Origin: Gemmatimonadaceae bacterium
GTDB taxonomy: Bacteria > Gemmatimonadota > Gemmatimonadetes > Gemmatimonadales > Gemmatimonadaceae
Length of the DNA: 34,467 nucleotides
Reading direction: 5' to 3'
Assembly: GCA_017991005.1 (NCBI GenBank)
Contig: JAGNMU010000003.1
Coordinates: forward strand, 1-34,467
Shown piece after piece: positions 26,525 through 32,433 of the stretch (its first letter is position 1; each line of letters starts with the position of its first letter). Position numbers and translations under genes: made by a program. The notes below the pieces were generated by a model. It saw only the letters and a program-made list of their open reading frames with translations. It was not told the origin of the DNA and searched no databases.

Positions 26525-27298
26525 CTATCTCGGCTTCTTCTTGCGTTTCGCCGCCTTCGCGGCCTTCAGTCGCTCCGCTTCGCGCTCCGCCTCATCGCGC
26601 AGGGCGATCACCGCTTCTCGCGCCTGCCACTCTGCACGATCACGCGCTTCCGCGTCTTTGGTGCGCCGCAGTCCTTCCGCTTCGCGCCACGCCGCAATCT
26701 TCGCGTGGTCACCGCTCATCAGCACCGGAGGCACCACGTACTCGCCGTACTCGGCCGGCCGTGTATAACTCGGCGCACTGATGCCGCGATCGTAAAACGA
26801 GTCCGTGCGCGCACTCTCCAGATCGCTCATCGCGCCCGGCAGCAGACGTACCACGGCGTCGACAATCGCGAGCGCGGCGGGCTCTCCGCCGCTCAGCACA
26901 AAGTCGCCCAGTGAGAGCTCCTCGGTGGCGAGGTGCTGCGCGACGCGTTCGTCGACGTCTTTGTAGTGGCCGCAGAGCAGTGTGAGTTCGGTGCCGGCGG
27001 CAAATCGCATCGCGTCCGCATGCGAAAAGCGGCGGCCGCGCGGTGACAGCATCACGATCGGCGACGTGGCGCCCAATGAGGCCACCGCTTCAAAGAATGG
27101 CGCGGGTTTCATCACCATGCCCGGACCGCCGCCAAACGGATAATCATCGACCGTACGATGTCGGTCGTGCGTAAAATCGCGCAGGTCGGTGACGTGGTAC
27201 GACACACTGCCGGCCGCCGCCGCCTTGGACGGAATGCTGATGGACAGCGGGCCCGCGAAAAATTCCGGGAAGATCGTGACGACGTTGATGCGCAGCAT
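26525..27298 (-). CDS. trmD: tRNA (guanine37-N1)-methyltransferase TrmD
   Basis: This protein has 257 residues. It methylates G37 of tRNAs reading CUN, CCN and CGG codons, using S-adenosylmethionine, to prevent +1 frameshifts. Diagnostic blocks are VTIFPEFFAGPL, DDYPFGGGPGMVM, LSPRGRRFSH, LCGHYKDVDERV and LSLGDFVLSGGEPAALAIVDAVVRLLPG (quoted in parts, forming the trefoil-knot cofactor site). VLMSGDHAKIAAWR follows. The C-terminal 40 residues form a charged Lys/Arg/Glu/Ala-rich helix ending in KRKKKPR, longer and more basic than usual. It starts 11 nt after the rimM stop. Confidence 0.97.
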   Translation of the reverse strand: MLRINVVTIFPEFFAGPLSISIPSKAAAAGSVSYHVTDLRDFTHDRHRTVDDYPFGGGPGMVMKPAPFFEAVASLGATSPIVMLSPRGRRFSHADAMRFAAGTELTLLCGHYKDVDERVAQHLATEELSLGDFVLSGGEPAALAIVDAVVRLLPGAMSDLESARTDSFYDRGISAPSYTRPAEYGEYVVPPVLMSGDHAKIAAWREAEGLRRTKDAEARDRAEWQAREAVIALRDEAEREAERLKAAKAAKRKKKPR

Positions 27299-27309: not shown

Positions 27310-27852
27310 CTAGCCCAACAACCCCTCGAGCGGTTTGAGCACGATCACGCGGGCCGCTTCGTCCACACGTTCGACGATACCGGGATGCCACGGCACCAGC
27401 GGGCGGCCTGTCGCCGTTTCCACTTCCAAGAGCAGCCCCTGCGGCGCCTCGTAGACATCGCGCACCTCACCCACCGGTCCCTGCCCGTCCACCTCCACGG
27501 TCATGCCGATCAGCGAGAATACGTACACCTCGTCCTCATCCGGCTCCGGAATGCGCGCCGTGTCCACCAGGAGATAGCGACCGCGCCACAAGTCGGCCTG
27601 ATCGCGGTCGGCCACTTCACGCACACGCACCAGCCATTCCTTGTTCATTTTGCGCCCGTCTTCAATTCGGAGCGCCACCGGCTTCGGCTTCTCCCCCGCC
27701 GACATACTGAGCGCGCCATTTCGGTCGCCGGCAAAAATGACAGCGCCGGACGCGAAGATCACGTCCGGCGCATCGGTCATCGGTTCGATGGCCCATGCGC
27801 CGCGCACGCCATGCGCGCGACGCACCCGGCCAACAACAGCGTATGCAGCCAG
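27310..27852 (-). CDS. rimM: Ribosome maturation factor RimM
   Basis: This protein has 180 residues if translation starts at CTG 27852, directly after the rpsP stop (1 nt between). It helps assemble the 30S subunit head by binding S19. The first conventional start is GTG 27825, which would remove YAVVGR, the first strand of the RimM N-terminal barrel; the conserved stretch is VVGRVRRAHGVRG. GAGG lies 6 nt before the CTG, within the end of rpsP, and nothing similar precedes the GTG. The C-terminal PRC-barrel part includes EVYVFSLIGMTVEV and VPWHPGIVERVD. The identity is certain; the start is inferred. Confidence 0.93.
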   Translation of the reverse strand: MAAYAVVGRVRRAHGVRGAWAIEPMTDAPDVIFASGAVIFAGDRNGALSMSAGEKPKPVALRIEDGRKMNKEWLVRVREVADRDQADLWRGRYLLVDTARIPEPDEDEVYVFSLIGMTVEVDGQGPVGEVRDVYEAPQGLLLEVETATGRPLVPWHPGIVERVDEAARVIVLKPLEGLLG

Positions 27853-27853
27853 C

Positions 27854-28171
27854 TTAGGCCTCGCTGTTGGGCATCGACACGGCGGCCGCCTGCAGCTTGG
27901 CCGCCAGACGCGCTTCGTGGCGGGACTTCATCACGCCGGCGCGGCGCAGCAACGAACGCACCGTGTCGCTCGGCAACGCGCCATGATCCATCCAGTGGTT
28001 CACGCGGTCAATTTTGAGGTTGATCGCGTTCTCACCACCGCCACGCGGCTGATACTGGCCGATGATTTCGATAAAGCGACCATCGCGCGGATCGGTCGAT
28101 TCGGCAACGACAATACGATACATCGGGGTCTTCTTGCGGCCTTCACGGCGCAAACGGATACGAACGGCCAT
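27854..28171 (-). CDS. rpsP: Small ribosomal subunit protein bS16
   Basis: This protein has 105 residues from ATG 28171 with AGGA 8 nt upstream. MAVRIRLRREGRKKTPMYRI, then VVAESTDPRDGRFIEIIGQY and the final SRHEARLAAKLQ are typical of S16. The frame is open further upstream, but the earlier ATG would add unrelated residues. It leads the rpsP-rimM-trmD group, which is usually preceded directly by ffh. Here a terminator hairpin, a DUF2911 remnant and a low-GC block lie in between, so rpsP probably needs its own promoter in 28172-28335. I could not identify a convincing one. Confidence 0.97.
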   Translation of the reverse strand: MAVRIRLRREGRKKTPMYRIVVAESTDPRDGRFIEIIGQYQPRGGGENAINLKIDRVNHWMDHGALPSDTVRSLLRRAGVMKSRHEARLAAKLQAAAVSMPNSEA

Positions 28172-28335
28172 CTCGACGTCCTGTGCGAATGGTTTCGGGC
28201 TGACGGGCGGTATACCGCTGTCACGCCACAACCTGAGCTCATCGCGACACCGGCGTTTCCGGGACGCACTCAGAGCCCGCGAGCCTGCGGGCGAGGTCGA
28301 TCCTGCCCCATTTGGGCGGCAGCCTTGGAAAATAG

Positions 28336-28379
28336 CGAAGGGCGGGTTCCGGGCGCTACTGCCAGGAACCCGCCCTTCG
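28336..28379. terminator. Terminator between the DUF2911 remnant and rpsP
   Basis: CGAAGGGCGGGTTCC (28336-28350) pairs perfectly with GGAACCCGCCCTTCG (28365-28379) around a 14-nt loop. On the minus strand the hairpin is followed by CTATTTTCC, a short U-rich tail, so it should end transcription coming from the DUF2911 side before rpsP. It is probably the original terminator of a DUF2911 gene. Confidence 0.8.
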
Positions 28380-28396
28380 TTGCCGGTCGCCTTTCC

Positions 28397-28781
28397 TTAC
28401 TTCGCCGTGAAGAAGGCCGTAGCCCGGGTCTTGTCCCACTGGACCGCCAGCTCGCCGCCCTTGCCGGACGGCGCGACCGTGATCTCCATCTTTTCGACCA
28501 CGGCCGGCAACGCCGTCACCGTCATGGGGATGTGCACGAGGTCCTGCTTGGCGTCATACGCCGTGCCCCACTGACCAGTCTGCTTGTTCACGATCAGCTC
28601 CCACTTGCCACCCTGATCGAGCTTGACCCACAACGTGTACGTGCCCGCCGGAACGGCGTGCATGCCGAACATCAGGTCCTTGGACGTGGTGAAGGACGTG
28701 GCTTCGTTGGCCCCCATGCGCCACACCATGCCCCACTTCATGTCGCCCAGACCGCCGAAGATCTCGCGACCACGCTTGGAC
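28397..28781 (-). pseudogene. 5'-truncated DUF2911 gene copy
   Basis: This frame has about 115 residues from the internal ATG 28741 and about 128 of recognisable family sequence up to 28781. It encodes only the C-terminal two thirds of a DUF2911 protein (FGGLGDMKWGMVWRMGANEA through GGELAVQWDKTRATAFFTAK). The signal peptide and first part are missing. Upstream of 28781 the homology stops abruptly, and a few codons later an in-frame stop appears with no start codon between. Positions 28497-28781 are identical to the intact copy except for one base. The last 100 bp differ at many positions but keep the reading frame (VEKMEITVAPSG against VEKMQISVTPAG). It may be untranslated or give a useless fragment. 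Confidence 0.85.
28497..28781. repeat. Direct repeat copy A (285 bp, within the truncated DUF2911 gene)
   Basis: The segment matches 31964-32248 at a constant offset of 3467 with a single mismatch (G at 28742, A at 32209). Both edges are sharp: homology is lost completely after 28781 and drops to moderate similarity below 28497. Confidence 0.95.
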
Positions 28782-28866
28782 TTGCCACTTGATCTCGGGA
28801 TATTCGTGCGTTGCTACCCGAACGTCCTTGTAAGTGGGGAGCTCAGTCTACTTTCGGCAGTTCGCC

Positions 28867-30513
28867 TCAGCGACTCGGCATCGAACGTGTGCAAAGGCTT
28901 TCCAGTCTCGCGACAAACGCCGAGCGAGGTTGAAGTTGTGCAGCGCGCCGCAAGTGAGGAGAGGCCAGATCACACCGGCCTGCGGTAACCAGAACGTACG
29001 AGAGCAGGCCTCTCGCCTCGACGTTGTTCGGCGCGATCGCCACGGCACGTGCCAAGTCTTGGGTTGAGTCAAATGAGTTGATGATGCGCATAGCGGCGAG
29101 ATCTTGCGAAGCGCTACGAGTCATCACCAACGAAAAGACAGCGCAGACAACAACTGCGGGCATCCATATGCGTCGCGCCGCGCAATCTTTTCGTCGCTTC
29201 GCACAATCGTATCTGCCCTCCCCGTCACCTAGTGCAACTCCGACTAGCAGGGCAATCAACATTGCCGACGGCGCCACACGAAGGACAGAATCGAACAAGC
29301 CGAGCATGGCGGCTGATGCCGAGACGCCCAAGACCATGAGACCTGCCTGTCTCGCTCGAGTGCTGCTGCTTCGAAGTAGCTTCCGCGTCCCACTGCCCAG
29401 AGTCGCCAATAGGGCAATCCCCATTCCGAAACCGACAACCCCCCATTCCGCAATCAGCGCCAGAATGTCATTTCGCGGAGTTTGCGGTCCCGGATAGAAT
29501 GCACCGAGAGAGACCGACGGGTCATCATTTCGCGCATAGTCTGGGTAGCGGACCGACCAATTGCCCGGAGCGACGCCTAGCAGCCACTCCCGTCGAATCA
29601 TCCGCCACGTGGTCTCGGCCTGAATCAACCTCCCTCGCCCGGTGCCGCTCTCAAATTCAAAAACTCGTCTGCCCGAGTTCGCAAAGTCTGAGGCGTTCCA
29701 TCCCATACGATTGGGAAGCAGAATTGCGGCAGCTGCGCCGATTGAGACGCCGAGCAACCACGTACGCGTGGCACTGCGCCATCGCAGTGAAACGTCTTTG
29801 GGCGCGAGCCACAACGCCGCCGTCGAGAGCACCATGATAACGAGAAGCGAAACGAGAAGTGCTCCTCGAGATCGCGACAGCACGATTGTCGCAGACAGCG
29901 CGGCCGTCATCGCCCAAAGCATCCAGAGAAACTTCGTGCGGTTTCTCGCGATTAGACGATCTAGAACGACCGGTAACGCACAACATGCGAGGCGAGCGGC
30001 CAGATTTCGATTTCCAAGTGTCGCGCCTGGACGGCGGCCCGGCGCCGAAAGAAATTGAAGGCCGCCGTACGCTTCCAGCAACACAACAATACACATGACG
30101 CTCACGACAATCGCAACCCCCCAGTAGATCGCGGCCCCCGCTCCCAGTCTTCCCAGCCGACGAGCCAGCAAGAAAACCAAGGTTGCCGCACCGAAATGAC
30201 CGACGGTGCGCCAAGCGGCAGGACCATTGACCGCCAAAGCTGCCGAGACGACTGCTCCCCAGCACACGAAAGCGAAGAGTAACAGCGCGATCCGGTCCGC
30301 CTCGACCGCACAGGCGCGTGGGATCAACAGCAGAGCTGCGAAGAGTCCCACAGAACCGATTGCGATCTCTTTTGGCAGGTCGTACTGCTCAAGCCGATAG
30401 GGCGGACCGTAGAGAAAACCAAGCACGACGACCGCGAAACCGATGAGCAGAATGCCATTTGCGACGGCAGCGAATAAACCTGAAAGCGAGCAGGTACGCG
30501 ACGTAACAGTCAC
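28867..30513 (-). CDS. O-antigen ligase-like polytopic membrane protein
   Basis: This protein has 548 residues from GTG 30513; an in-frame stop just upstream leaves no earlier start. About 12 hydrophobic segments are spread over residues 10-460. The pattern GATLGNRNLAARLACCALPV and the large periplasmic loop between membrane segments (SGTGRGRLIQAETTWRMIRR, then LLGVAPGNWSVRYPDY) fit the Wzy_C/O-antigen ligase superfamily, whose members transfer or polymerise glycans on the outer face of the inner membrane. The C-terminal 80 residues resemble a TPR pair (DLARAVAIAPNNVEARGLLS, then HLRRAAQLQP), as in some members. It is the last gene of the low-GC block. No glycosyltransferases lie nearby, so the glycan is unknown. 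Confidence 0.82.
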   Translation of the reverse strand: MTVTSRTCSLSGLFAAVANGILLIGFAVVVLGFLYGPPYRLEQYDLPKEIAIGSVGLFAALLLIPRACAVEADRIALLLFAFVCWGAVVSAALAVNGPAAWRTVGHFGAATLVFLLARRLGRLGAGAAIYWGVAIVVSVMCIVVLLEAYGGLQFLSAPGRRPGATLGNRNLAARLACCALPVVLDRLIARNRTKFLWMLWAMTAALSATIVLSRSRGALLVSLLVIMVLSTAALWLAPKDVSLRWRSATRTWLLGVSIGAAAAILLPNRMGWNASDFANSGRRVFEFESGTGRGRLIQAETTWRMIRREWLLGVAPGNWSVRYPDYARNDDPSVSLGAFYPGPQTPRNDILALIAEWGVVGFGMGIALLATLGSGTRKLLRSSSTRARQAGLMVLGVSASAAMLGLFDSVLRVAPSAMLIALLVGVALGDGEGRYDCAKRRKDCAARRIWMPAVVVCAVFSLVMTRSASQDLAAMRIINSFDSTQDLARAVAIAPNNVEARGLLSYVLVTAGRCDLASPHLRRAAQLQPRSAFVARLESLCTRSMPSR

Positions 30514-30551
30514 ACGAGCCGAAACAAAGTTTCAGTAACGCTCAGAGGAGA

Positions 30552-31088
30552 CTAGCTTCGCGACGTCAGGCCTGCTCGCACAAATTTCCAAGTACCCGAG
30601 CCGGATCGAGACAGGTGGACTTGTGTCGAAAACTGAGAGAGGAATGAGCGCGTGGGTAAAGAGGTCGCCCACGTGACGTGCAACCACACGACGGCGTCTG
30701 AGCCCGCTACAGACATGGGCTCGACATAGACGTACGTCGACTTTGCCAAACGCGCACACGACTTCGATCCCGCCTGATCACAGTCCGTCAAAAGCTCACT
30801 GTTGCCAGGAGACACTTGCGCGCGTAACGACAGGCCAATTGGGCCCCCTCGCTTCCCAGCGTACCCGAACGCTGTCATGGTACGTTCGAAGTCAAAGCGA
30901 ATCCCACGCTGCGCGACGGTGAACGTGGTCAGGGATAGCTCTGGCGTAAGCACCCCAAGAATAGCTGCATCAACGATCTCGGCGATTTCACGCGGCGAAT
31001 GCAGAGGTTGCTGAGCTTCCAGCGAGGTCGAGGTGACAAGCGCGAGTGCGAACATCGCTCTGAAACTCGTCGATTTGAGAAGCCTCAT
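30552..31088 (-). CDS. Exported protein of unknown function in the low-GC block
   Basis: This protein has 178 residues from ATG 31088 with GAGGAG 9-14 nt upstream. A signal peptide (FRAMFALALVTSTSLEAQ) is followed by a mature part with no motif I recognise (IAEIVDAAILGVLTPELSLT, then GIRFDFERTMTAFGYAGKRG). Two Cys residues (CDQAGSKSC) could form a disulfide. It starts 13 nt after the HExxH lipoprotein gene and ends 38 nt before the O-antigen-ligase-like gene, so the three are probably one operon. Confidence 0.75.
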   Translation of the reverse strand: MRLLKSTSFRAMFALALVTSTSLEAQQPLHSPREIAEIVDAAILGVLTPELSLTTFTVAQRGIRFDFERTMTAFGYAGKRGGPIGLSLRAQVSPGNSELLTDCDQAGSKSCARLAKSTYVYVEPMSVAGSDAVVWLHVTWATSLPTRSFLSQFSTQVHLSRSGSGTWKFVRAGLTSRS

Positions 31089-31101
31089 GGTTCTACGCTC
31101 C

Positions 31102-31596
31102 TCAGCCCTGTGAGTTTAGGCACGTGTTCTGCATCGCGACTCCGGAGTCCTCGTTCGCGCCTAGGTGATGTGCTTCTTCGTGCGCGATTAGACCTCCAGT
31201 AGACTGTGGGTTGGTGTTTCCAGAATTCCAGAACCGCGGATAAACGTTGGTATATTCATCCGCAGGAACCCAACTTCCAGGACCGACAGTGTACACACTC
31301 ATGTCCATGTCCCCATACTGGGGCTTATAGCGAAATCCTTCGCCACTCTCGGCATCATAACGCCCTTGTGCTGCGTATCCAGCCACCCTGCAGATCGCAT
31401 TGGCATGCTCCTTCAGGTATGTGATGCCGGCCTGGATGATCGCGCAATCGTCCGGAAACATCTCGCAGCTCGAAAAAATCTCGAACTTCGGTAGCTCCGG
31501 CAGATCCTGCTCGGGCGCAACCGGTGATTCTGAAATGCTGCATGCTCCTGCGAACGCGAGTAACACGCCCCCAAACACTAGTCTCAATAGTCGCAC
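31102..31596 (-). CDS. Lipoprotein with a metzincin-like HExxH zinc motif
   Basis: This protein has 164 residues from GTG 31596, chosen because GGGAG lies 5-6 nt upstream and a clean lipoprotein signal follows (VRLLRLVFGGVLLAFAGAC, Cys19). The longer frame to 31653 would bury the signal. The mature protein has four further Cys (44, 51, 69, 159), then near the C-terminus AHEEAHHLGANED. This reads HExxHxxGxxE with His139, Glu140, His143, Gly146 and Glu149. It is close to the metzincin pattern HExxHxxGxx(H/D), with Glu in the third ligand position. It is probably a small zinc metallopeptidase anchored to a membrane. No Met-turn is obvious, although Met155 lies shortly after. I do not recognise the family. 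Confidence 0.75.
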   Translation of the reverse strand: MRLLRLVFGGVLLAFAGACSISESPVAPEQDLPELPKFEIFSSCEMFPDDCAIIQAGITYLKEHANAICRVAGYAAQGRYDAESGEGFRYKPQYGDMDMSVYTVGPGSWVPADEYTNVYPRFWNSGNTNPQSTGGLIAHEEAHHLGANEDSGVAMQNTCLNSQG

Positions 31597-31671
31597 AGAA
31601 TCTCCCGTTAAGCGTCGCAACAGCAAAGGGCACTCGTACAGCATCCCAGACAATTGGGACGCTAACCCTGC

Positions 31672-31690
31672 GGGGGGGGGGGATTGTCAA
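31672..31690 (-). promoter_or_regulatory. Possible promoter with an 11-base C tract in the spacer
   Basis: On the minus strand a perfect -35 box TTGACA (31690-31685) is followed almost at once by an unbroken run of eleven C (G on the plus strand, 31672-31682). TAGCGT, a weak -10 candidate, lies 20 nt after the -35 box. The element points toward the HExxH lipoprotein operon, whose start is 31596. Changes in tract length would alter the spacer. This is a candidate only. Confidence 0.35.
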
Positions 31691-31863
31691 GGTTCGTCCC
31701 CAGCCGGCGGGAATGGCCCGGTACTCTCCGAAGGCCGCACGGGGTTCAAGCGACCTTCGGACTTCTCCATCGTCTTCAGAAACACCCTCCATGACTCGAC
31801 AGGGCGATTTCGCCCCGACAAACGCGCACCTGTGTTCCAGAGGATTTGCAGACGGCCGCAGGC

Positions 31864-32433
31864 TTACTTGACCGTAAACGTCGCCGCCGCGCGAGCCTTG
31901 TCCCACTCCACGGCAAGCTCACCGCCCTTTCCGGCCGGCGTCACGCTGATCTGCATCTTCTCCACCACGGCCGGCAACGCCGTCACCGTCATGGGGATGT
32001 GCACGAGGTCCTGCTTGGCGTCATACGCCGTGCCCCACTGACCAGTCTGCTTGTTCACGATCAGCTCCCACTTGCCACCCTGATCGAGCTTGACCCACAA
32101 CGTGTACGTGCCCGCCGGAACGGCGTGCATGCCGAACATCAGGTCCTTGGACGTGGTGAAGGACGTGGCTTCGTTGGCCCCCATGCGCCACACCATGCCC
32201 CACTTCATATCGCCCAGACCGCCGAAGATCTCGCGACCACGCTTGGACGGACGTCCGTAGTTGACCGAAATCTGCGCACCGCCGATGGTCGCCTTGAGCG
32301 AATCACGCGGTGAGGCGGGCGGCTGCTTCGAACCGGCGGCGGGCATCTGCATGCCGCCCTGCGCGAAGGCGGGGGCGGCGGACAACAGGGCGACCGACAG
32401 CGCGCCGAAAGAAAGACGACGGGAAAGTGTCAT
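31864..32433 (-). CDS. DUF2911 family exported protein (intact copy)
   Basis: This protein has 189 residues from ATG 32433. The signal peptide (LSRRLSFGALSVALLSAAPA) ends near FAQGG. The family core follows: QISVNYGRPSKRGREIFGGL, MKWGMVWRMGANEATSF, GMHAVPAGTYTLWVKL and WELIVNKQTGQWGTAYD, in the order usual for DUF2911. This family is common in Bacteroidota, Acidobacteria and Gemmatimonadota and has no established function. The protein is probably a periplasmic beta-sandwich. Its middle is duplicated in the truncated copy 3467 bp away. GAGAA lies before the ATG. Confidence 0.9.
   Translation of the reverse strand: MTLSRRLSFGALSVALLSAAPAFAQGGMQMPAAGSKQPPASPRDSLKATIGGAQISVNYGRPSKRGREIFGGLGDMKWGMVWRMGANEATSFTTSKDLMFGMHAVPAGTYTLWVKLDQGGKWELIVNKQTGQWGTAYDAKQDLVHIPMTVTALPAVVEKMQISVTPAGKGGELAVEWDKARAAATFTVK
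31964..32248. repeat. Direct repeat copy B (285 bp, within the intact DUF2911 gene)
   Basis: This is the partner of the repeat at 28497-28781, with one mismatch. Here the coding sequence continues on both sides into a complete gene, so this copy holds the original 5' end. Confidence 0.95.

Follow-up and report, generated by a model that had tools for sequence, protein, structure and literature searches.

Probable integrase-free insertion of foreign genes anchored in a DUF2911 gene of an uncultured Gemmatimonas

The stretch of DNA considered here (the window) is a contig of 34,467 nucleotides (JAGNMU010000003.1, assembly GCA_017991005.1) from a Gemmatimonadaceae bacterium, in which three genes foreign to the host stand between two copies, one complete and one truncated, of a gene of the DUF2911 family. 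We consider it probable that these genes arrived by an insertion that required no integrase and was anchored in DUF2911 by homology, whether the second joint was made on the chromosome or on a circle. For the more specific reading that we favour, in which a linear donor molecule recombined homologously at one end and was joined illegitimately at nucleotide (nt) 186 of the gene at the other, our confidence is evenly balanced.

The window is one whole contig of a metagenome-assembled genome of 633 contigs (79% complete, 4.5% contamination) from an uncultured organism which, judged by its relatives, groups with the genus Gemmatimonas in the database sense. This genome is referred to below as G000, and the 29 congeners with which it was compared carry similar labels; L numbers denote loci and C numbers contigs.

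Architecture of the repeat

The two DUF2911 copies (A and B), the genes between them, and the terminator and rpsP operon beside copy A all lie on the minus strand. Positions 28497-28781 of copy A and 31964-32248 of copy B, corresponding to gene nt 186-470 and referred to here as the core, are repeated at an offset of 3467 bp with one mismatch in 285, this being a synonymous GAC/GAT difference at 28742. Copy B (31864-32433; 189 amino acids) is complete, matching profile positions 1-142 of PF11138 with 148 bits, and is orthologous to the single DUF2911 gene found upstream of rpsP in congeners. Copy A (28397-28781), which adjoins rpsP and would preserve the 3' end that the resident gene had originally, is without the 5' third and matches only positions 23-142 (121 bits, the gathering cut-off of the family being 27). 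Its homology to copy B stops abruptly at 28781/28782 (gene nt 186, codon 62), the illegitimate joint between cargo and DUF2911 that is called joint J in what follows.

On the other side of the core the two 3' tails have diverged, such that 28396-28496 is 74% identical to copy B (26 differences in 101), while outside the repeat the identity at the same offset is at chance level (24% for 28782-28830 and 21% for 28330-28395); no further long repeats were found between 26 and 34 kb. Beyond copy A there follow a terminator-like, 15-bp perfect inverted repeat, read from the sequence (28336-28379, arms 28336-28350 and 28365-28379), and then rpsP (27854-28231), which together with rimM (27310-27825) and trmD (26525-27298) forms the syntenic anchor conserved downstream. 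An initial annotation of the window had already described the near-perfect repeat, the missing 5' part of copy A, the different 3' end of copy B and the terminator; its repeat positions and single base difference proved exact, and the other features are all present.

The core and tail mosaic and how it may have arisen

The contrast between core and tail (1 difference in 285 as against 26 in 101; Fisher p of about 1e-15) is sharp, and those pairs of relatives that have tail identities of 0.70-0.77 have core identities of 0.78-0.89. Taken by codon position, the 27 differences between copies A and B fall 17 at third, 7 at first and 3 at second positions, and this third-position excess implies that each tail accumulated its changes as part of a functioning allele, in a lineage of its own, rather than after copy A had become a fragment. 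The core is closest to G013, G014 and G021, in agreement with the rpsP-rimM-trmD tree, whereas the tail of copy B (31864-31963), which is probably donor-derived, is closest to G012 and G004 (0.79 and 0.78), a weak signal over 98 bp that is unlike the rest of the gene.

On the favoured reading, a linear molecule of foreign DNA from another Gemmatimonas-like bacterium would have entered the chromosome at the resident DUF2911, bringing with it the 3' end of the donor's DUF2911 gene and, behind this, three cargo genes (g3, g2 and wzy, in that order). At one end it would have recombined by homology near gene nt 470 (window ~31963/31964), making copy B a composite of resident DNA and a 3' tail from the donor, with the donor cargo after it, while the other end, having no matching flank, would have been attached illegitimately at nt 186 of the resident gene, upstream of the crossover. 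Resident nt 186-470 would thereby have been duplicated (the 285 bp that still agree at 99.6%), with displacement of the resident 3' end downstream as the remnant A, leaving DUF2911 intact as copy B with the cargo between the copies. We infer the linear form of the donor, its identity, the order of events and the route of uptake; the mosaic, the joint and the synteny are observed directly, as are the foreign character of the cargo and the two further insertions of this topology described below. The attraction of this scheme is that the core would be resident DNA in A and B alike, with the tail alone coming from the donor, so that the mosaic is explained in a single event. It accords with a homologous joint at one end, where identity drops from 99.6% to 74% at ~31963/31964, with a non-homologous joint at the other, where homology is lost at 28781/28782, and with the resident DNA at that joint being duplicated and not deleted. 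Insertion with a homology anchor at one end has been described experimentally (PMC3240628), and one-end homology anchoring has been invoked for effector arrays in V. cholerae (PMC5361080).

The same mosaic bears on what the initial annotation had proposed, namely Campbell-type integration of a circle of about 3467 bp. The part of that proposal that stands is an insertion which duplicates part of its landing gene and has direct repeats of the shared segment on either side; the part that does not fit is the divergence, since a plain circle carrying a diverged fragment would make copy A donor then host and copy B host then donor, and the divergence between A and B should then be equal to either side of the crossover (identities of 99.6% and 74% being found). 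A modified version, in which DNA was trimmed inside a DUF2911 fragment and circularised (so that joint J was formed on the circle), then entered through one RecA crossover, with heteroduplex repair or later conversion homogenising the 285-bp core, yields an identical topology, has no need of an integrase, and belongs with the dominant product class in E. coli conjugation, partial duplications of 109-950 bp (PMC3240628). Its cost is an added conversion tract that must end at the tail, and we regard it as a possible but distinctly less probable account.

The locus in relatives

The usual layout among the congeners is one DUF2911 gene upstream of rpsP-rimM-trmD, with the block absent. Congeners with an orthologue have a single copy, the exceptions being G045 (two copies, in the same architecture as the window) and G014 (three full-length copies). 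The latter lie on contigs C138, C143 and C197 (L061, L062, L063) with different neighbours, perhaps because of mixed strains in the bin. Between DUF2911 and rpsP, congeners usually have a gamma-glutamyltransferase (GGT) gene in convergent orientation, and on its other side DUF2911 is flanked by TerB-like and VPS10-like genes (names read from sequence only). In the window the outer neighbours are those expected for the locus (the rpsP operon on one side, g32310 and ffh on the other) and the inner genes are missing; a GGT orthologue (72%) is present elsewhere in G000 (C125:7279-8895, L116), adjoining a queuine tRNA-ribosyltransferase gene, and a search of that genome found nothing homologous to the TerB-like neighbour. 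That DUF2911 was the landing site, as had been suggested at the outset, is supported, and both outer flanks belong to the locus in relatives.

These comparisons also bear on the idea that an older tandem pair of DUF2911 paralogues flanked the genes, one copy later being truncated and the core homogenised by gene conversion. A 26% tail divergence beside a homogenised core is indeed an outcome to be expected of conversion, but no congener has a second complete copy adjoining the first, copy A stops abruptly at a joint, the cargo is missing from the locus in other genomes, and there are two parallel insertions with other cargo (see below), all of which makes this account improbable. The initial annotation had pointed out that two complete, diverged paralogues in all relatives would tell against an insertion; the congeners are without any complete side-by-side pair.

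The interval between DUF2911 and rpsP differs by species, with TonB receptor and LytS/LytR-like genes in G020 and G041, and a SulP-like transporter with a second gene in several other congeners. Inserts between DUF2911 and GGT in G020, G041, G013, G014 and G023 were considered as parallels and set aside, there being no flanking DUF2911 duplication, as were DUF2911 pairs outside the genus (L169, L171, L187, L207, L218), which are diverged neighbouring paralogues within ~1.2 kb and of different architecture. Among the genomes compared, the closest other DUF2911 gene has ~80% DNA identity. On plasmids only distant homologues of DUF2911 were found, and a search of the literature on DUF2911 yielded nothing informative.

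Parallel insertions

Two further insertions of the same topology are present in the genus. In G045 a full DUF2911 gene is followed by genes for an ABC transporter ATPase and an ABC-2/M1-peptidase permease (full length by comparison with relatives, where the permease gene is located elsewhere), and then by a DUF2911 copy that is missing its 5' part and is 98% identical over 389 bp, after which comes the flank found here in relatives. In G010 a 3.7-kb insert with a GC content of 0.56 and a third cargo is bounded on each side by an exact 40-bp copy of the DUF2911 terminator, its joint being at the terminator, outside the gene, and the distal copy carrying the native flank (94% to G014); the distal copy thus bears the relatives' flank in both genomes. 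The terminator hairpin occurs only at DUF2911 loci in the seven genomes searched, and a dispersed hairpin repeat as homology anchor was therefore rejected, the hairpin being DUF2911's own terminator.

The rpsP-rimM-trmD tree places G000 beside, and not within, the G045 clade, and the near relatives of G045 are without its insert, so that the G000 and G045 insertions are best read as independent. As two other members of the genus have the same layout with different cargo, the 3' end of DUF2911 looks like a recurrent landing spot that makes use of ordinary recombination, with no dedicated integration enzyme. A bolder proposal would be that this 3' end serves the genus as a genuine landing site independent of any integrase, into which modules accompanied by a DUF2911 3' end or by its terminator are swapped by homology, with a preferred point of breakage and joining near codons 59-62, i.e. 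a gene-anchored cassette exchange lacking a dedicated recombinase; this we consider unlikely.

The assembly of G000, in 633 contigs and with its limited completeness and some contamination, invites the suspicion that contigs or strain variants were misjoined through the shared 285-bp core, which could exceed short-read k-mers. Both outer flanks are nevertheless correct for the locus, which would require two separate false joins at one place, and G045, where the architecture must be real because the genome is complete, is arranged identically; an artefact is accordingly improbable.

A further alternative arises from the position of the joints, that of G045 falling at the equivalent of gene nt 181 and that of G000 at nt 186, only 5 bp apart despite their different cargoes. 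This is what might be seen had there been site-specific integration at an attachment site near DUF2911 codon 60, by an element that restores the 3' end of the gene under the action of a recombinase supplied in trans. Against this, no recombinase is present among the cargo genes scanned (the three genes in the window are not recombinases by Pfam or NCBIfam, in keeping with the earlier view that no integrase was needed), the G010 joint lies outside the gene, there is no constant attachment core across the cases, and the duplications vary in length (40 bp in G010, 285 bp in G000, ~450 bp in G045). No tRNA or Rfam RNA was found that might serve as attachment site, and we regard this explanation as very unlikely indeed.

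Points that weigh against the favoured reading

Several observations count against the one-end crossover of a linear donor. The coincidence of the G000 and G045 joints to within 5 bp (~2-3% by chance) is left unexplained by it; no microhomology is evident at joint J in the comparison with copy B; and ComEC (PF03772) was not found in G000, a genome 79% complete. The genomes compared include no empty-site strain of this species. The foreign-donor signal in the tail rests on 98 bp, so that the donor nature of the tail is weakly shown, and rank correlations of the tails against the rest of the gene are not significant. Finally, described products of homology-facilitated illegitimate recombination (HFIR) usually carry a deletion rather than a duplication, and of 60 candidate clones obtained by conjugation in E. 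coli only 4 appeared to be HFIR, the other 56 being partial duplications (14 of them sequenced, at 109-950 bp) that were ascribed to trimmed circles and a single crossover (PMC3240628). Because resident DNA has here been duplicated rather than deleted, it is safer to say that the proposed event works like HFIR than that it is an instance of it.

The cargo genes

The block between the copies has a GC content of 0.55-0.60, as against ~0.65 around it, and holds three co-oriented open reading frames (ORFs). The first, wzy (28867-30513), encodes a membrane protein of the Wzy_C/O-antigen-ligase type with a C-terminal repeat-like region (PF04932, E 3.6e-11), its closest relative being in G006 (contig C8, 46%); no plasmid relatives were found. 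The gene g3 (31102-31653), with relatives in G006 (53%) and weak ones in G004 and G007, encodes a putative secreted lipoprotein with an invariant, metallopeptidase-like HExxH motif, and g2 (30552-31088), with relatives in G006 and G045, a putative secreted protein that accompanies it. The GC content at third codon positions is 0.61 for wzy, 0.64 for g2 and 0.59 for g3, compared with 0.74-0.85 in complete neighbouring genes, and the full set is found in only one of the 29 congeners, G006, in the same order, at 46-53% identity and at another locus. The cargo is foreign to the host, its third-position composition and its distribution both being unlike those of the host; the initial annotation's low-GC foreign block is upheld, and the host-like signal that it had named as the contrary outcome was not seen.

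The island around the set in G006 is of defence type and includes an MmeI-type restriction enzyme, a pPIWI-associated nuclease and an NYN protein, and the wzy homologue there appears to be broken by an oppositely oriented, transposase-like ORF (L049:7700-9500, contig C8). Genes like g2 and g3 are adjacent also in G004 and G007, the pair recurring as a two-gene module in four genomes of the genus (window 30552-31653; L049:10829-11942; L044:1513-2599; L045:944-2040). Across the copies of the module g2 has two invariant cysteines, and neither gene has a Pfam or NCBIfam family; the module may possibly encode an undescribed secreted metallopeptidase and its partner. AlphaFold models of g3 and g2 (predicted local distance difference test scores of 58 and 68) gave no significant match in a fold search of the PDB, and viral contigs searched for g3 and DUF2911 gave no matches. 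Upstream of g3 is a run of 11 G (31672-31682), the sole homopolymer of at least 8 in the window, which is possibly phase-variable or error-prone.

Comparison with known systems

An insertion of this kind is already known, and what is new is the instance at DUF2911. The locus constitutes a readable natural record of the entry of a few kilobases into a chromosome without an integrase, in which the core and tail mosaic allows chromosomal joints to be told apart from joints formed on a circle, a distinction that isogenic laboratory DNA cannot provide. Three insertions of the same topology at one gene in one genus suggest, moreover, that in this little-studied phylum the gene is a landing site used repeatedly.

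Phage-like islands are known that restore the 3' end of icd or of tRNA genes on insertion; in the case of e14 and phage 21 in icd, the inserted DNA gives the resident gene a new 3' end and the old one is left downstream. The three Gemmatimonas cases differ in having neither an integrase nor a constant attachment core. HFIR shares with the window one homologous anchor, an illegitimate joint opposite, the gain of foreign cargo and the dispensability of an integrase, but its described products mostly delete resident DNA, often with 3-10 bp of microhomology (PMC3240628), in place of the duplication without evident microhomology seen here. The Campbell integration of trimmed, recircularised DNA in E. 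coli is similar in that a partial duplication of the target gene (109-950 bp there) flanks the insert (PMC3240628), and different in that the duplicated segment here is a mosaic, with a core at 99.6% and a tail at 74%. Similar in outline are the type VI secretion system effector-immunity arrays of V. cholerae (PMC5361080) and the orphan 3' ends of Rhs genes, where a conserved upstream part serves as anchor, a new 3' end and its cargo come in, and the old 3' part is displaced downstream; in those systems, however, what is displaced has a function and is believed to be under selection, whereas the DUF2911 remnant is 5'-truncated and of no known use, and it is the intact gene that keeps its product.

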